IMG/VR virus record: IMGVR_UViG_3300010373_000029
Location: 1-36,880 of that record
DNA from: a virus
Direction: 5' to 3' (one strand)
DNA length: 36,880 nucleotides
Every line of letters begins with the position of its first letter. Position 1 is the stretch's first letter. The position numbers and the translations under genes were made by a program. Below, one piece after another: positions 3,326-27,588 of the stretch. The notes under the pieces were generated by a model that saw only the letters and a list, made by a program, of their open reading frames with translations, did no database searches and was not told where the DNA came from.

Positions 3326-3865
3326 TTATTGGTAGAACTCTTCGACGATGATTACACCGCTTCCGCCGTTATTACCGACTCTCGCGCCGCCGGTCATTGC
3401 GGAACCGCCTGCACCTATCGCGTATACATAGCTTGGCAAAGGCGTAGGTATTAGGGCGTCGATATATGCTCCAGCACCGCCGCCGTTTCCACTATACTGC
3501 GTACCGCCGCCGTTATCAGACCCCCCCCCCCCGCCGCCGCCGCCGCCAGAATTTGCCGCTGCAGAAGTTCCTGAACTAGAAAGTGTGCCGCCGCTCCCCG
3601 CGCTTCCAAATGGACTTACTCCGCCGTTTCCGCCCGCGCTTCCAAATGGACTTACTCCGCCGTTTCCGCCCGCGCAAATTCCACCGAGTCCGCCAATGAT
3701 CCGGATGCGCCATTTGTCGTCGCGTTGAAGGAGTGCGATGTCCTTCGCGTGCTGATTCGCCTGAGTCACGAGAGGCGCGAGCATCTTCTTGATGTCCTTC
3801 GTCTCTCCGCGGATGAAGACCTGATGCTCTTCTATTCGGGCAAGTCTCACTTCAAGCGATTCCAC
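3326..3865 (-). CDS. Coiled-coil (XhlA-like) head fused to a glycine-rich tail-tip domain
   Basis: 179 residues from GTG 3865 (AAAGGA 5 bases upstream). Residues 1-60 are a charged helical coiled coil ending in WRIRIIGGLGGI. This resembles the start of holin-accessory XhlA-like proteins, which would normally run into a membrane helix. Here, from residue 64, the sequence turns into Gly-rich repeats (two GGVSPFGSA units, then a run of nine Gly). It finishes with a domain matching the C-terminus of the neighbouring tail fibre (AYIDALI...YVYAIGAGG...SGVIIVEEFYQ versus GYIDALI...YVYSVGPGG...SGLIIVEEHYQ). It therefore looks like a partial duplication of the fibre tip attached to another gene. It could be a spare or alternative receptor-binding tip, or a recombination or assembly chimera. 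Confidence 0.7.
   Translation of the reverse strand: MESLEVRLARIEEHQVFIRGETKDIKKMLAPLVTQANQHAKDIALLQRDDKWRIRIIGGLGGICAGGNGGVSPFGSAGGNGGVSPFGSAGSGGTLSSSGTSAAANSGGGGGGGGGSDNGGGTQYSGNGGGAGAYIDALIPTPLPSYVYAIGAGGSAMTGGARVGNNGGSGVIIVEEFYQ
3599..3670 (-). repeat. 36-bp tandem repeat, two perfect copies
   Basis: Positions 3599-3634 and 3635-3670 are identical 36-base units, followed by the first five bases of a third. They encode two copies of a 12-residue Gly-rich unit containing GGVSPFGSA in the fused tip gene. A multiple of three keeps frame, so copy number could change by slippage without breaking the protein. Confidence 0.95.
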
Positions 3866-3883
3866 GAGAATCCTTTCTCGAAG

Positions 3884-6043
3884 TTACTGATAGTGTTCTT
3901 CGACGATGATCAATCCAGATCCTCCTGATCCGCCATTGAAACCACCAGAGCTAATTGCTCCGGCTCCTCCCGGACCGACAGAGTAGACATAGGATGTTCC
4001 TACTGTAGTTATGAGCGCATCGATATATCCTCCCGCCCCTCCGCCCCCTCCCGCGAAAGTGCCGGTATTACTGCCACCCCCCCCGCCTCCACCACCTGTG
4101 TTTGACGGCGCGGCGGAACCTGCGACGGATTGAGCGCCTCCGCCTCCGCCTCCTCCAAATGGAGTCGCGGCCCCATTTCCTCCGAACGTCGCTGTACCGG
4201 ACCCCCCTTGGCCGGACGCTCCGGTAAAAGTGACCGCGGAAAATCCAGTACCGGTTGCATTGGCGGTCCCGCCAGTCCCATTTCCCTCTCCCGATGCGGC
4301 CGTGCCTCCATTCCCAATGAACATAGATGCGCCGAACACTGATGCGCTTCCAGAAGTAGCGGCACTCGATGTACCCGCAGAAGAGGCGCCGCCTCCGCCG
4401 CCGCCTACCATTCGCACCTTCAAATAAAGCGCATCCGTTGGCGGAGTGTACGTTGCAAGGGCTGTCGCCGCTGAAAATGTAATCGAAGAGTCGCCCGTAC
4501 CTGTAGCTTTCGACAGCGTTCCGCTTGTAGCAGGTGCGCCAGTTGAGCTGCAAAACAATGTCGTTGCGCCTGCGATCGTTGCAAGCACCGTAAAAGTTTG
4601 CGTATTATTGGTGTACGTCGCTCCGATCGTAGCGTTGCCGGAAGTAATCGTAAAAACGTAGCCTGTAGTTGTGCCTGTGGAAGTCAAAACAGTTCTTGTA
4701 ATAGGCTTGAACGTCGTCGCGTTTCCTTTGAGCGTGCCCACATAAGACCAATTTGAACTTCCATCGGTCGTAGCAATTCCAAGGCACCGCCACGGGTTGT
4801 GGCGGTTATAGTATCCCTTGAGATCAGGACGATAAAACGGCGGAATGTCGCTGATCATCGTCGCGCCTTGATCGGTGAGATACAAGTAGTAAGTCGAGCT
4901 TGCTGCGAACGTCGAAAAATAATCGGAGCTTGAAGCGTAATTGTTCGTACCGTTCCAAATCGGAAGGTAGTATCCGAAGCCGATATCTTTTCCATTCACG
5001 CTTGTTGATCCGAAAAGACGCTTTGCTTGAATGTTCGTCACTGTAGCGGCAATTTCGAGATCAATCGACGTTTCAGCATTCGTTCCGGCGTAAAAGTCCA
5101 CGGATCTAGCTGCGACGCAGTTCGCACTGTCAACGACGACAAGACCGATCAGTGTGCGGTTGACGATTTGGAAAGTCGATCCGTCGTATCGCTTCCAAAT
5201 TTGATTGACGGTATCGTACCAGTAGTCGCCGGTCGCAGGAGAGCTTGGTGCGCTCGAAGCGTAGGTAGGTTGATTGTACGTGACGTCAACGGTCGTCGCA
5301 TCGTTCGTCATGAACACATAGCCCAAATTCATAAGCGTGATCGTGTCGCCGTTTGAAATGGGTTGTGCGTTGATCGGATTCAAGCCGGAATCGTAGAAGT
5401 ATCCGCGAATCGCGTGTGAAAGAACGGTCGAGCTTTCAACAAGCGCAATGAAATATTCGGTCGAAGCACTGTGGACAAGCTTGAACGCCGCAAATTTTCC
5501 GATCTTATTGGTGATATTCGTACCCGCCGAACTCAGCGTGATTTTGCTTGGCGATCCGACTTCACCCCAAGTGCGTGTCGCCATTTGAGCATTTGCAGTC
5601 GCATCGTTCACCGTCGCGGTATTAGAAGTTGAAGGTGCGGTTGTCAATCCGGTCTTCGTGATATCCGTATTCACCGTAACAGCGACACCGCCGATCGAAA
5701 GAACAAGGTTTGTAGTCGCGCCCGCTATCAGTACGCTTGCAGCGGCACCGTTTGGAGTCAAAAACGCAGGTTGATTTGAGCTTGTACGCGTCTTGCCTGA
5801 AACGACACGGTTTGCAGGCGACACGATTTTAGAAGTGTCGAGCGAAGATCCGTTCAAGTTGATCGAAGCGCAGTACAAAGAACCCCACGGAAGGGCGAGC
5901 GTTCCAAGGTTTTGACCGCTTGTCGGAATCCCTGTAGCTCCGCGTCCGACAAAATCCCCGTCCAAAGCGCTGTGGATATCGTTAAAAAACGTATCCAAAA
6001 TGGTTTGTCCGATCGAACGATTGTTCAGTGTATTTGCGCTCAT
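3884..6043 (-). CDS. Tail fibre with glycine-rich receptor-binding tip
   Basis: 719 residues. The N-terminal 60 residues look like a tail-attachment helix plus an SLYCASINLNGSSLD strand common in fibre proteins. The centre is Ser/Thr/Ala/Asn-rich beta structure with a GDYWYDTVNQIWKRYDGSTF segment seen in many phage fibres. From about residue 545 (LYLKVRMVGGGGGG) the protein becomes extremely Gly-rich with Gly runs of 4-7, ending LIIVEEHYQ. Gly-rich tips of this kind form host-recognition sandwiches in T-even gp38-type adhesins, so receptor binding is the likely role. The start ATG 6043 has GAGGAA 7 bases upstream. It lies 18 bases before the fused tip gene whose C-terminus it resembles. Confidence 0.82.
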   Translation of the reverse strand: MSANTLNNRSIGQTILDTFFNDIHSALDGDFVGRGATGIPTSGQNLGTLALPWGSLYCASINLNGSSLDTSKIVSPANRVVSGKTRTSSNQPAFLTPNGAAASVLIAGATTNLVLSIGGVAVTVNTDITKTGLTTAPSTSNTATVNDATANAQMATRTWGEVGSPSKITLSSAGTNITNKIGKFAAFKLVHSASTEYFIALVESSTVLSHAIRGYFYDSGLNPINAQPISNGDTITLMNLGYVFMTNDATTVDVTYNQPTYASSAPSSPATGDYWYDTVNQIWKRYDGSTFQIVNRTLIGLVVVDSANCVAARSVDFYAGTNAETSIDLEIAATVTNIQAKRLFGSTSVNGKDIGFGYYLPIWNGTNNYASSSDYFSTFAASSTYYLYLTDQGATMISDIPPFYRPDLKGYYNRHNPWRCLGIATTDGSSNWSYVGTLKGNATTFKPITRTVLTSTGTTTGYVFTITSGNATIGATYTNNTQTFTVLATIAGATTLFCSSTGAPATSGTLSKATGTGDSSITFSAATALATYTPPTDALYLKVRMVGGGGGGASSAGTSSAATSGSASVFGASMFIGNGGTAASGEGNGTGGTANATGTGFSAVTFTGASGQGGSGTATFGGNGAATPFGGGGGGGAQSVAGSAAPSNTGGGGGGGGSNTGTFAGGGGGAGGYIDALITTVGTSYVYSVGPGGAGAISSGGFNGGSGGSGLIIVEEHYQ

Positions 6044-13175: not shown

Positions 13176-14069
13176 TCAGGTGAAGGTCGTCGGAATCACA
13201 GACCGGATCTTGAAGACCGCGTCTTGAACCGAGTCATAGATGCATGACACTTTGATCTCGGTTTGGCTGAACGCGAATTCGTCGAACGCGATCGGGAAGC
13301 CGGAAGCGATGCAGTTGAATGCTTCGATTTCGAACATTTCAGCCGTCGCACGCTTCTGAGCAAGAATCACCGCACCGAAAGCCGGAAGCGTGGTGCTTGC
13401 CGATCCGATCGTGATATCGCTCGATCCGTTGTTCACCGGACGTGCCGAGAAAATCGCCGTGTCTCCCGCCACAAGTGCAATCGTTCCCGATCCGCCCGTG
13501 AGAGTCAGACCGAAGTTCGGAATGTCCACGCTCGCGCCGGTCGTGATCGAAAGCGGCGTAGCAGTGACTTTCAGGCCGTCGCTTTGGTACGTACCCGCGT
13601 TGCCGCGAGCAATGTCCACGTCGGACATGAGGTACACGTCAACGTGAGTCGCGTCAGTAGCGACAAGAACGTACTTGCCGAACTTCACGTCGCCTTTGCT
13701 TGCAGTCTTCACAGCGATCGACGCAAGGCCGGTCGTGGCTTGCATGACCGAAGTGCCCTTAACGTTCGTCAATGCTGAAACGCTTGCGTCAGTTTCAGCC
13801 GCGTTGTCCGTGTTCGTTCCTCCCAAAAACTGCGTGAACAAAAATCCCGGATACGCTTTGACCTTACAAGCAAGCTCAGCTTTGATCGTCTTGCTTTCAG
13901 CCGCCCACGAAAACTTTTGAGCGCCGCCGTACAGCTCTTCGAGCGCAGCTTGCATGCTGATATTTGCGGAACCGATCACTTTCAAAATGCCGTATGGCGT
14001 GTGATCGACGCGTGAATACGGCGACAGCGAGTGTACGCCGAAAACAATTCTTGGTGCCGATAAACTCAT
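13176..14069 (-). CDS. Major tail tube protein
   Basis: 297 residues. The first 90 residues have the tube-type pattern GVHSLSPYSRVDHTPYGILKVIGSANISM with strands and one helix. The centre (95-230) is an inserted beta domain with GGSGTIALVAGD, probably Ig-like. The C-terminus closes the tube fold (EIEAFNCIASGFPIAFDEFAFSQTEIKVS). It is followed directly by a terminator, consistent with an abundant protein. Its ribosome site is of the GGGGGA type (14074-14079). Position after tail-terminator genes and before chaperones is standard. Confidence 0.82.
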   Translation of the reverse strand: MSLSAPRIVFGVHSLSPYSRVDHTPYGILKVIGSANISMQAALEELYGGAQKFSWAAESKTIKAELACKVKAYPGFLFTQFLGGTNTDNAAETDASVSALTNVKGTSVMQATTGLASIAVKTASKGDVKFGKYVLVATDATHVDVYLMSDVDIARGNAGTYQSDGLKVTATPLSITTGASVDIPNFGLTLTGGSGTIALVAGDTAIFSARPVNNGSSDITIGSASTTLPAFGAVILAQKRATAEMFEIEAFNCIASGFPIAFDEFAFSQTEIKVSCIYDSVQDAVFKIRSVIPTTFT

Positions 14070-24887: not shown

Positions 24888-27218
24888 CTAAAATTCGACA
24901 GGTCCGACGTTTCCACGTCGAAACTTCATACCAAAATACTCAACGCCTGAATTGGTGCGTCGTTTGCGTTTTGCGACTTCTGGGATTGCGTTGATCCGTT
25001 TGTAGAATTTCAGCTCGGCGTAAGCGTACTGACCGATCGTTTGCTTGTAGGCTTCGTACAATTGTCGTGGCTTCAAACACTCCGTAGTTTCCTTAGCGTC
25101 GAACGAAATGGTTTCAGCAAGCCATTGAGCAGCGGTGCACGAAGAGCTACGAATCTCTTCCATCTCAAGCGCCGATTTATCGCTCTTCGTGAATCCTTCT
25201 TGACGTTCAAGTCGCTTCCAGCCTTCAAAAGCAAAGTTGAAAATACCGGGAAGCTCAGCAAGTAATTTTTTCTTCAAGTTGCGATCTTGCAGCGATTCGT
25301 CGGTCAAATCTTTTTTCCACGGAATAATAATCGGGCGTGACAGCATTCCGGGCGACAAGTCTTTGAGCATCGGCACTTCGTTGTAAGTCATGATCAACTT
25401 TGCGCGAGATCGAAATTTATACGGATCTCCGTACTTCTTTTGCGCGTTCACATCGCCGTCGCCGGTTAGATTTTTGAACTGACTTGAATCCGACAATTCT
25501 TCGGGCGAAGTCTCTTCTGAGAAGTTCGCAATCTTGCCGTCGAGATCAGCGCTTGAAAACTTGTCCTGTGAAATGGCTTTGATCGAAAGAGAAGAGTAGT
25601 TATCAGCGCCGATCAAAGCTTTGAGCACGTCTAAGAATGTCGATTTACCGTTTCGTCCGCTACCCGATAGCCACAGCGCTTTGTGGTACTTGTATTCCCC
25701 CCCGCGCACAACGTAGCCCATGAACTCTTGCAAAATAGCGACAAGGTCTTTGTCACCAAGCATGACGTCGTTTAGCCACCATTCGAACGTCGGGCACAGT
25801 GCATTTGGATCGTAATCATACGGCAATACTCCTCTGAATCCATATTCGGGACTATGAGGGATGAGTCGAGCTGAATTACCGGCACCGTCTTCGAGTTGCA
25901 AAATTCCGTTTCTAAAATTGATCTTATTTTCTGTAGTACGAAGAAAAAAGGATCGGAACTCGATGTTGTTTGCGAAGACTTTGTGGCAGAATTCTTGTCG
26001 CAGTTTTTCTTGCGGCTTAGGTTCGAACGCTTCTTCAGCGAAGCCTTTGATTTCGATCGGTGTGCAGTCTGCATAATGTGTCCCCTTAAAAACGACGACG
26101 CTCTTGGTATCTGCTATCGTCTTGTAAGCGTGCTTCTTCTTGAACTCTTCTAGCAGCGCATTGTAATCCGGTAATAGCTTTCCTTTGTCGCCGACGATGT
26201 AAAAGCGCGTGTCGAAGATATTGACCGGCGAATTGATCTTGCCGTAGAGCGGGCACGACTTACATTCGTCACTGAGTGTCGCGATGTTTTGGCACGTGCG
26301 CGGTGCGGATTCTTTTTCAGCCTGATCAATCTTGTCGTTGCACTGTGAAACCGAGTAGCCGGGATGCCCGATCGAGATCGCATGACACTGCTTACGTCCC
26401 TCTTGAAAGCGTGAGACGATCGAAAGAGCGGCGTACCATTGCGGTTCATTGACCGTCGCAGGCTTCTCTTTACAGCGCTTGAGGAACCCACAGCGCTCAA
26501 ACGCCGCCGTACCAGACGGTGCAAGCCAAGTCTTCTCGATCGTCTTCGTGGGGGAAGCCTTGGGCGTCTCCGCCAAGGTCTTAAGTAGCTGCGTGAGTTT
26601 GTCGAGCGGCGAACGTAGAGCGGTGACCGGAATGTCTAGGCTACCGCGCTTTTCAGCCGTGAGCTTGATTCGTTCAAGATCAATTTCAAGATCACCGAGC
26701 GCGATCTTGTACAGTCCCGTCTTGGGATGCCGAGATCCGAGTGCGCGGAACTTTCGATTTGCGTTGTAAATCGTCGTATCTAAGGATTTATAGGTTGACT
26801 TAAGATGCGTCGCGAGTCGGTTGAGAATCACGCCAAGATCATTCGACGGTTGAAGGCCGAAGCAATCAAACGGCACGCCTACGTGGAATCCTTTCGAACC
26901 TGAATAGCAAATGAAGACGTCGTGAACGCCAAGCCATTCGACGAAGGCGCGAGTGTCGGCAAGGGCTTGAACGCCCGCCGGTATTTTATTTTCTTCGTCG
27001 GCGTGTGAATCAAAATCAAACCACACGTAGCCGAGTGACGGGCGCATAAGGCCGCTATAGCTATTGAAATTTTCTCTCGGTTCTAGGTCAAACGCGCAGT
27101 GATAAGCTTCGCCGCCGTCGTGTGCTTTGATAGTATCGCGCAAGCTTTCAGCCGGAATATGGCCTTCGTATCCGAAAGCCTTGGTGCTGTGAACGAAGTA
27201 GTTAGCCCATTGAGACAT
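24888..27218 (-). CDS. AEP-type primase fused to SF3 helicase
   Basis: 776 residues. Residues 60-180 are an archaeo-eukaryotic primase-like catalytic domain: DFD (68-70) for metals and SGSKGFH (106-112) for nucleotide binding. A cysteine set (C243, C249, C309, C319, C322) may bind zinc or Fe-S. From about 400 comes a D5/P4-type lead, then the helicase with Walker A GSGRNGKS (519-526), SEETSPEEL and a TYNEVP sensor strand. It should unwind the origin and lay primers for the phage polymerase. It starts AAGAGG-ATG within the end of the CsrA-like gene and is therefore the second gene of that operon. Confidence 0.9.
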   Translation of the reverse strand: MSQWANYFVHSTKAFGYEGHIPAESLRDTIKAHDGGEAYHCAFDLEPRENFNSYSGLMRPSLGYVWFDFDSHADEENKIPAGVQALADTRAFVEWLGVHDVFICYSGSKGFHVGVPFDCFGLQPSNDLGVILNRLATHLKSTYKSLDTTIYNANRKFRALGSRHPKTGLYKIALGDLEIDLERIKLTAEKRGSLDIPVTALRSPLDKLTQLLKTLAETPKASPTKTIEKTWLAPSGTAAFERCGFLKRCKEKPATVNEPQWYAALSIVSRFQEGRKQCHAISIGHPGYSVSQCNDKIDQAEKESAPRTCQNIATLSDECKSCPLYGKINSPVNIFDTRFYIVGDKGKLLPDYNALLEEFKKKHAYKTIADTKSVVVFKGTHYADCTPIEIKGFAEEAFEPKPQEKLRQEFCHKVFANNIEFRSFFLRTTENKINFRNGILQLEDGAGNSARLIPHSPEYGFRGVLPYDYDPNALCPTFEWWLNDVMLGDKDLVAILQEFMGYVVRGGEYKYHKALWLSGSGRNGKSTFLDVLKALIGADNYSSLSIKAISQDKFSSADLDGKIANFSEETSPEELSDSSQFKNLTGDGDVNAQKKYGDPYKFRSRAKLIMTYNEVPMLKDLSPGMLSRPIIIPWKKDLTDESLQDRNLKKKLLAELPGIFNFAFEGWKRLERQEGFTKSDKSALEMEEIRSSSCTAAQWLAETISFDAKETTECLKPRQLYEAYKQTIGQYAYAELKFYKRINAIPEVAKRKRRTNSGVEYFGMKFRRGNVGPVEF

Positions 27219-27420
27219 GTGCTACCTCTTCGCGTGCAATTTCAAATTTGCGCTCGCTGTCTTCGAATGCGATCACGACTTGCCAGCCGGAATGAAAAGC
27301 GATCACTTGCAGCACAAGCGTTTCGCCTTGGTGCCTGATCACGATTTTATCGCCGAGCTTTCGCTTAAGTCTTAGACCAGAAGGCACCGCTTGCGGCGGC
27401 ACTTCTTTAAGAACGGACAT
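27202..27420 (-). CDS. csrA-like: CsrA/RsmA-like RNA-binding translational regulator
   Basis: 72 residues: a 15-residue extension, then the CsrA strand order. LRLKRKLGDKIVI (16-28) matches the first strand and GE turn of CsrA; QVVIAF (47-52) matches the central strand; and IAREEV (61-66) holds R63 in the position of the RNA-contacting R44 of E. coli CsrA, with R20/K21 as the partner basic pair. CsrA dimers bind GGA in mRNA leaders near ribosome sites. Its own start reads TTGGATGTC, which fits the known GGAUGU core, just after a GGGGGA (27427-27432), so autoregulation is likely. It lies directly after a good promoter and ahead of the primase. Confidence 0.75.
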   Translation of the reverse strand: MSVLKEVPPQAVPSGLRLKRKLGDKIVIRHQGETLVLQVIAFHSGWQVVIAFEDSERKFEIAREEVAHVSMG

Positions 27421-27449
27421 CCAATATCCCCCACGATTCAGATACGTCC

Positions 27450-27479
27450 GTTGTAAGCCGCACGGTTTTGGATTGTCAA
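27450..27479 (-). promoter_or_regulatory. Sigma70-type promoter for the csrA-like/primase operon
   Basis: On the minus strand a perfect TTGACA (27474-27479) is followed after 18 bases by TACAAC (27450-27455). The start codon at 27420 would leave a leader of only about 20-25 bases holding GGGGGA and GGATG. Confidence 0.65.
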
Positions 27480-27561: not shown

Positions 27562-27588
27562 CGGAGCTACGCCAAAGACGCAGCTCCG
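27562..27588 (-). terminator. Intrinsic terminator of the 27615-27902 gene
   Basis: Stem CGGAGCT/AGCTCCG, then TTTTTATTTTT on the minus strand. It lies 27 bases after the stop codon and separates this gene from the csrA-like promoter. Confidence 0.85.

Follow-up and report, generated by a model that had tools for sequence, protein, structure and literature searches.

The DNA analysed is an IMG/VR virus record obtained by environmental sequencing, and the window, meaning the whole stretch under analysis, covers its full 36,880 bases. A tailed-phage gene set is present in the window, with genes for terminase, portal, capsid, tape measure and head protease. At the beginning of the window, positions 5-190 on the plus strand resemble the C terminus of a DNA polymerase of family A (with the sequence QVHDAILF; E = 0.012 for Pfam DNA_pol_A), and the record therefore seems to have been cut through the polymerase gene. 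Two adjoining glycine-rich proteins are encoded on the minus strand within 3326-6043 (at 3884-6043 and 3326-3865) and have near-identical ends (SGLIIVEEHYQ and SGVIIVEEFYQ), which are probably paralogous ends of the tail-fibre type. An Rfam search of the window found neither CsrB-like nor other known RNAs. The locus of interest comprises a small reading frame, the primase gene that follows it and the elements around them:

24888..27218, minus strand: P4-type primase/helicase, 776 aa (Pfam DUF5906, 2.1e-20, and D5_N; PHROG 864, 3.5e-76; TIGR01613, 8.6e-59)
27202..27420, minus strand: CsrA-like ORF, 72 aa (ATG at 27420, TAA at 27204-27202; CsrA-like core at residues 16-67)
27225..27231, minus strand: primase Shine-Dalgarno GAAGAGG, read from the sequence, inside the CsrA-like ORF
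27427..27432, minus strand: GGGGGA, in the simplest reading the CsrA-like ORF's Shine-Dalgarno
27450..27479, minus strand: possible promoter TTGACA-18-TACAAC, a consensus match only and absent from the list of a stricter scan
27562..27588, minus strand: strong intrinsic terminator with a 12-bp stem and a T-rich tail, ending the upstream minus-strand gene

The original prediction placed a phage-encoded CsrA homologue at 27202-27420, at the head of the primase operon. This interval proved to be exact, with the reading frame on the minus strand, which the prediction had left unstated; on the plus strand the same interval is interrupted by stops. The encoded protein is MSVLKEVPPQAVPSGLRLKRKLGDKIVIRHQGETLVLQVIAFHSGWQVVIAFEDSERKFEIAREEVAHVSMG. 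It has a hydrophobic strand pattern, and every motif that had been pointed out can be found in it, namely LRLKR (residues 16-20), GDKIVI (23-28), QVVIAF (47-52) and IAREEV with R63. The codon score of this frame is 0.12 bits per codon and is the sole positive score among the six frames over the stretch, indicating that the ORF is most likely a gene. In reference windows of 72 codons, genes scored 0.20±0.18 and off-frame windows -0.23±0.17, and 1.9% of the off-frame windows scored as high as the CsrA-like ORF. The position ahead of the primase was also called correctly, since the ORF directly precedes the gene of the P4-family primase/helicase, whose start sits 17 nt inside the 3' end of the ORF. 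The terminator at 27562..27588 separates the preceding gene from the CsrA-like/primase unit, and the TTGACA-18-TACAAC element (27479-27450) could, judging from its consensus match, mark the start of this unit.

To what extent the protein belongs with CsrA was examined through family searches. Pfam CsrA (PF02599) is the only Pfam match of the 72-aa protein (E = 0.0019, 18.6 bits, profile positions 2-48 of 53; 17.6 bits in the genome search), and its score lies below the curated cut-off of 27 bits. The protein has no match in PHROGs at E ≤ 1, where E. coli CsrA, used as a comparison, matches four PHROGs, and none among NCBIfam and PDB sequences. Neither E. coli nor B. subtilis CsrA could be aligned to it by BLASTP, and hhalign against CsrA gave P = 0.066, which is inside the shuffle range. 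Two custom CsrA profiles were built, the first on eight CsrAs and the second on 66 diverse ones, mostly from viral contigs. Ranked against its own shuffles, the protein was 3rd of 5,001 with the eight-CsrA profile (8.7 bits) and 5th of 20,001 with the 66-CsrA profile (11.8 bits), and this increase in score with a broader profile is the behaviour expected for a remote CsrA member. The custom profile alignment spans nearly the entire CsrA core of the protein; those similar-scoring unrelated ORFs that were inspected matched only fragments of the profile. On these comparisons the similarity to CsrA appears to be above chance and under the curated thresholds, and it is suggestive, not secure.

Eleven positions, in E. 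coli numbering, are near-invariant in CsrA in the sense of being at least 95% conserved in the CsrAs of the custom profile. Seven are kept in the 72-aa protein (L2, L4, R6, G27, Q29, R44 and E46), and the changed positions are G33, A36 and P37, occupied by A51, S55 and E56, together with E10, which is replaced by D. The R/K at CsrA position 31 is lost as well. The RNA-contacting residues L4, R6 and R44 are matched by L18, R20 and R63, and Arg44, the counterpart of R63, is essential to RNA binding in RsmA, as is its equivalent in RsmN (PMC3791407). The two residues next to R63, E64 and E65, are encoded by the primase Shine-Dalgarno GAAGAGG (27231-27225), which the CsrA-like frame divides as GAA-GAG-G, so that both may be there because of that element. 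Masking E64-E65 lowers the score by about 2.5 bits, and masking the LRLKRKLGD block lowers it by 5-7 bits. The C-terminal helix after β5 is almost absent, with just the seven residues VAHVSMG between the E46 equivalent and the end. Because the family score falls below the cut-off and three near-invariant residues are replaced, we label the protein CsrA-like and not a member of CsrA. The predicted CsrA match thus stands in part: CsrA-like is the best available reading and in our judgement a reasonably probable one, but no secure homologue was obtained, given the sub-cut-off Pfam score, the lack of a PHROG and the loss of G33, A36 and P37.

Single-sequence AlphaFold2 gave a monomer model of low confidence (pLDDT 55.7), whose strands at residues 18-22, 25-30, 33-42, 45-54 and 58-61 follow the CsrA order. 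Prediction with 28 viral CsrAs aligned was also of low confidence (pLDDT 54.4), and the MAFFT alignment placed β3 poorly. A Foldseek search with the low-confidence single-sequence model returned nothing significant, and no CsrA was among the matches listed.

A tblastn search of 50,697 phage records and 72,556 plasmids with the 72-aa protein yielded no homologue, only matches at E > 1, of which one in Thermus phage G20c was rejected as antisense to a CDS. Scans for peptide patterns in IMG/VR and in 84,980 GTDB species genomes found no homologue either, and a search of GTDB genomes with the capsid gene found no prophage relatives. As no homologue was found anywhere searched, evolutionary support for the CsrA reading is absent. 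The capsid gene is common to 20 other IMG/VR records (45-84% identity), and none of the 20 contains the CsrA-like gene or any CsrA match, although many of them are fragments, in which a missing gene proves little. A 57-aa ORF in two relatives (G002 and G003) reached 9.1 bits and was discarded, as only 15 profile positions were matched and the ORF is antisense to the terminase. The C-terminal part of the primase is common to two of the capsid-sharing records (54-57%). In one of these relatives, G009, an HTH/YdaS-like gene (L038, 3948-4154, minus strand) lies ahead of the primase in place of the CsrA-like gene. With the gene in none of the 20 relatives and an HTH gene in this last one, the CsrA-like gene seems to be accessory, occupying a variable position and, by the look of the relatives, not belonging to the conserved make-up of the replication operon.

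CsrA proteins encoded by phages have been published (PMC7366521, PMC8450108). Phage and plasmid alleles are catalogued in PMC7366521, and PMC8450108 argues that phage CsrAs manipulate the host, including through lowered CRISPR-Cas expression; in Burkholderia phage JC1 the CsrA protein may even be packaged (PMC9144972). Phage CsrAs are common, being found in 94 phage records and 507 IMG/VR stretches, and the published surveys of them applied a threshold of E ≤ 1e-4. Pseudomonas phages F116 and phi297 and Vibrio phage VvAW1 likewise have a small CsrA-type gene in their genomes, and that of VvAW1 adjoins an exonuclease and is near an SSB gene. The published phage and plasmid CsrAs are near-copies of bacterial CsrA, and the examples aligned or listed are 49-100% identical to each other or to E. 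coli CsrA, with a few weaker, whereas the 72-aa protein cannot be aligned to E. coli CsrA by BLASTP. It shares with E. coli CsrA (PF02599) the predicted strand order, the LxLxR start, the GxQV turn and the equivalents of R44 and E46, but differs in a 14-residue N-terminal extension, about five inserted residues, the loss of G33, A36 and P37, the nearly missing C-terminal helix and the sub-cut-off score. Genuine phage CsrAs are also 1-3 residues longer between β2 and β3. The Pseudomonas aeruginosa protein RsmN (PMC3791407) resembles the 72-aa protein in its length of 71 aa, in having no C-terminal helix and in its essential Arg62, the equivalent of R63, and the helix is therefore not strictly defining for the CsrA family. 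In contrast to the 16-residue helical insertion of RsmN between β2 and β3, the 72-aa protein has about three extra residues there and the N-terminal extension. RsmN, a true family member, does not complement an E. coli csrA mutant for its glycogen phenotype. Two further arrangements were observed in other phage sequences. In Pseudomonas phage vsMR (OR687460.1; L016, ~2.3-2.6 kb), a 92-aa reading contains two CsrA-type stretches (Pfam CsrA, 58 bits) and is possibly a single-chain tandem CsrA, and viral contig L134 has two different CsrA genes, one with A-D replacing the near-invariant A-P.

Our favoured reading, to which we give somewhat better than even chances, is that the ORF encodes a highly diverged RNA-binding translational regulator of the CsrA/RsmA type that is co-expressed with the primase and acts more likely on host mRNAs. 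Such a protein would be made from the primase transcript, with its ORF probably coupled translationally to the primase. Proteins of the CsrA/RsmA family have a five-stranded fold as interlocked dimers and bind GGA in the loops of RNA hairpins. A small β-rich dimer of this kind would attach to ribosome-binding sites that contain GGA, contacting RNA through L18 and R20 in β1 and through R63, the counterpart of Arg44, and the translation of selected mRNAs would be blocked or reprogrammed in the replication phase. Host mRNAs would be the likelier targets purely by analogy with other phage CsrAs, and the phage's own operon might be one. The dimer fold, RNA binding, targets and timing are what we infer for the protein, and any influence on the carbon metabolism or motility of the host is speculation. 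It is rather unlikely, in our view, that this is instead a small phage protein rich in β-strands and unrelated to CsrA, such as one that binds nucleic acids or assists the primase, whose short strand pattern is like that of CsrA by chance. The sub-threshold Pfam score, the empty PHROG search, the non-significant hhalign result, the missing G33, A36 and P37, the low-confidence structure and the absence of CsrA among the Foldseek matches listed would all agree with such a protein, but an alignment that is colinear across almost the entire core and retains L4, R6, G27, Q29, R44 and E46 is unlikely to arise by chance, and no other Pfam family matches. Another idea, that the ORF serves chiefly as a leader for translational coupling to the primase and that the protein it encodes does nothing in its own right, would suit the overlapped primase start, the primase Shine-Dalgarno inside the ORF and the lack of a homologue in any relative. 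We consider it very improbable, as the ORF has 72 codons, longer than coupling needs, with gene-like codon usage and a hydrophobic strand pattern.

A CsrA-like protein might also have a local job, binding its own leader and setting the level of the primase and not acting on host mRNAs, and this we regard as unlikely. The original prediction had drawn attention to GGGGGA and GGATG in the leader and had raised control of the phage's own expression. Both sequences are present (GGATG at 27422-27418, minus strand), and the two GGAs at the start of the CsrA-like ORF give it the top count of all 34 starts examined, at best a weak argument; the 17-nt overlap with the primase and a possible leader hairpin holding the start codon in its stem (-13.9 kcal/mol) would also fit autoregulation. 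However, GGGGGA is found ahead of the genes starting at 14069, 18045, 22102, 30394, 32778 and 33251 in the window as well, and GGGGA-type sites are equally frequent in relatives without CsrA (G002, G004 and G008). Since GGGGGA often serves as a Shine-Dalgarno both in this genome and in those relatives, it does not stand out here, and the autoregulation deduced from the leader is unsupported. Against local control there is also the hairpin itself, as stable in 13 of 200 shuffles (z = -1.45) and with an outer arm that may be upstream of the transcript start. Moreover, the leader GGAs are merely 7 nt apart, which is close for a single CsrA dimer to bridge. Quite improbable, finally, is a distinct phage lineage of CsrA-like proteins too diverged for surveys at E ≤ 1e-4 and dedicated to the phage replication operon, not to mimicry of host CsrA.

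The small gene ahead of the primase thus probably encodes a protein that is related to CsrA, an RNA-binding regulator of bacteria, but has diverged strongly from it. CsrAs encoded by phages are already known; this one is set apart by how far it has diverged and by being an orphan, and would be a modest, putative variant, not a new kind of system. If the relationship is not real, the case would warn that a short ORF rich in β-strands may pass for CsrA by eye, especially when a downstream Shine-Dalgarno writes 'EE' in frame. If it is real, phage regulators of the CsrA type would reach beyond the catalogued near-copies of host CsrA, surveys at ordinary cut-offs would undercount them, and the locus would offer a connection, open to testing, between a phage's primase gene and a regulator that binds RNA.
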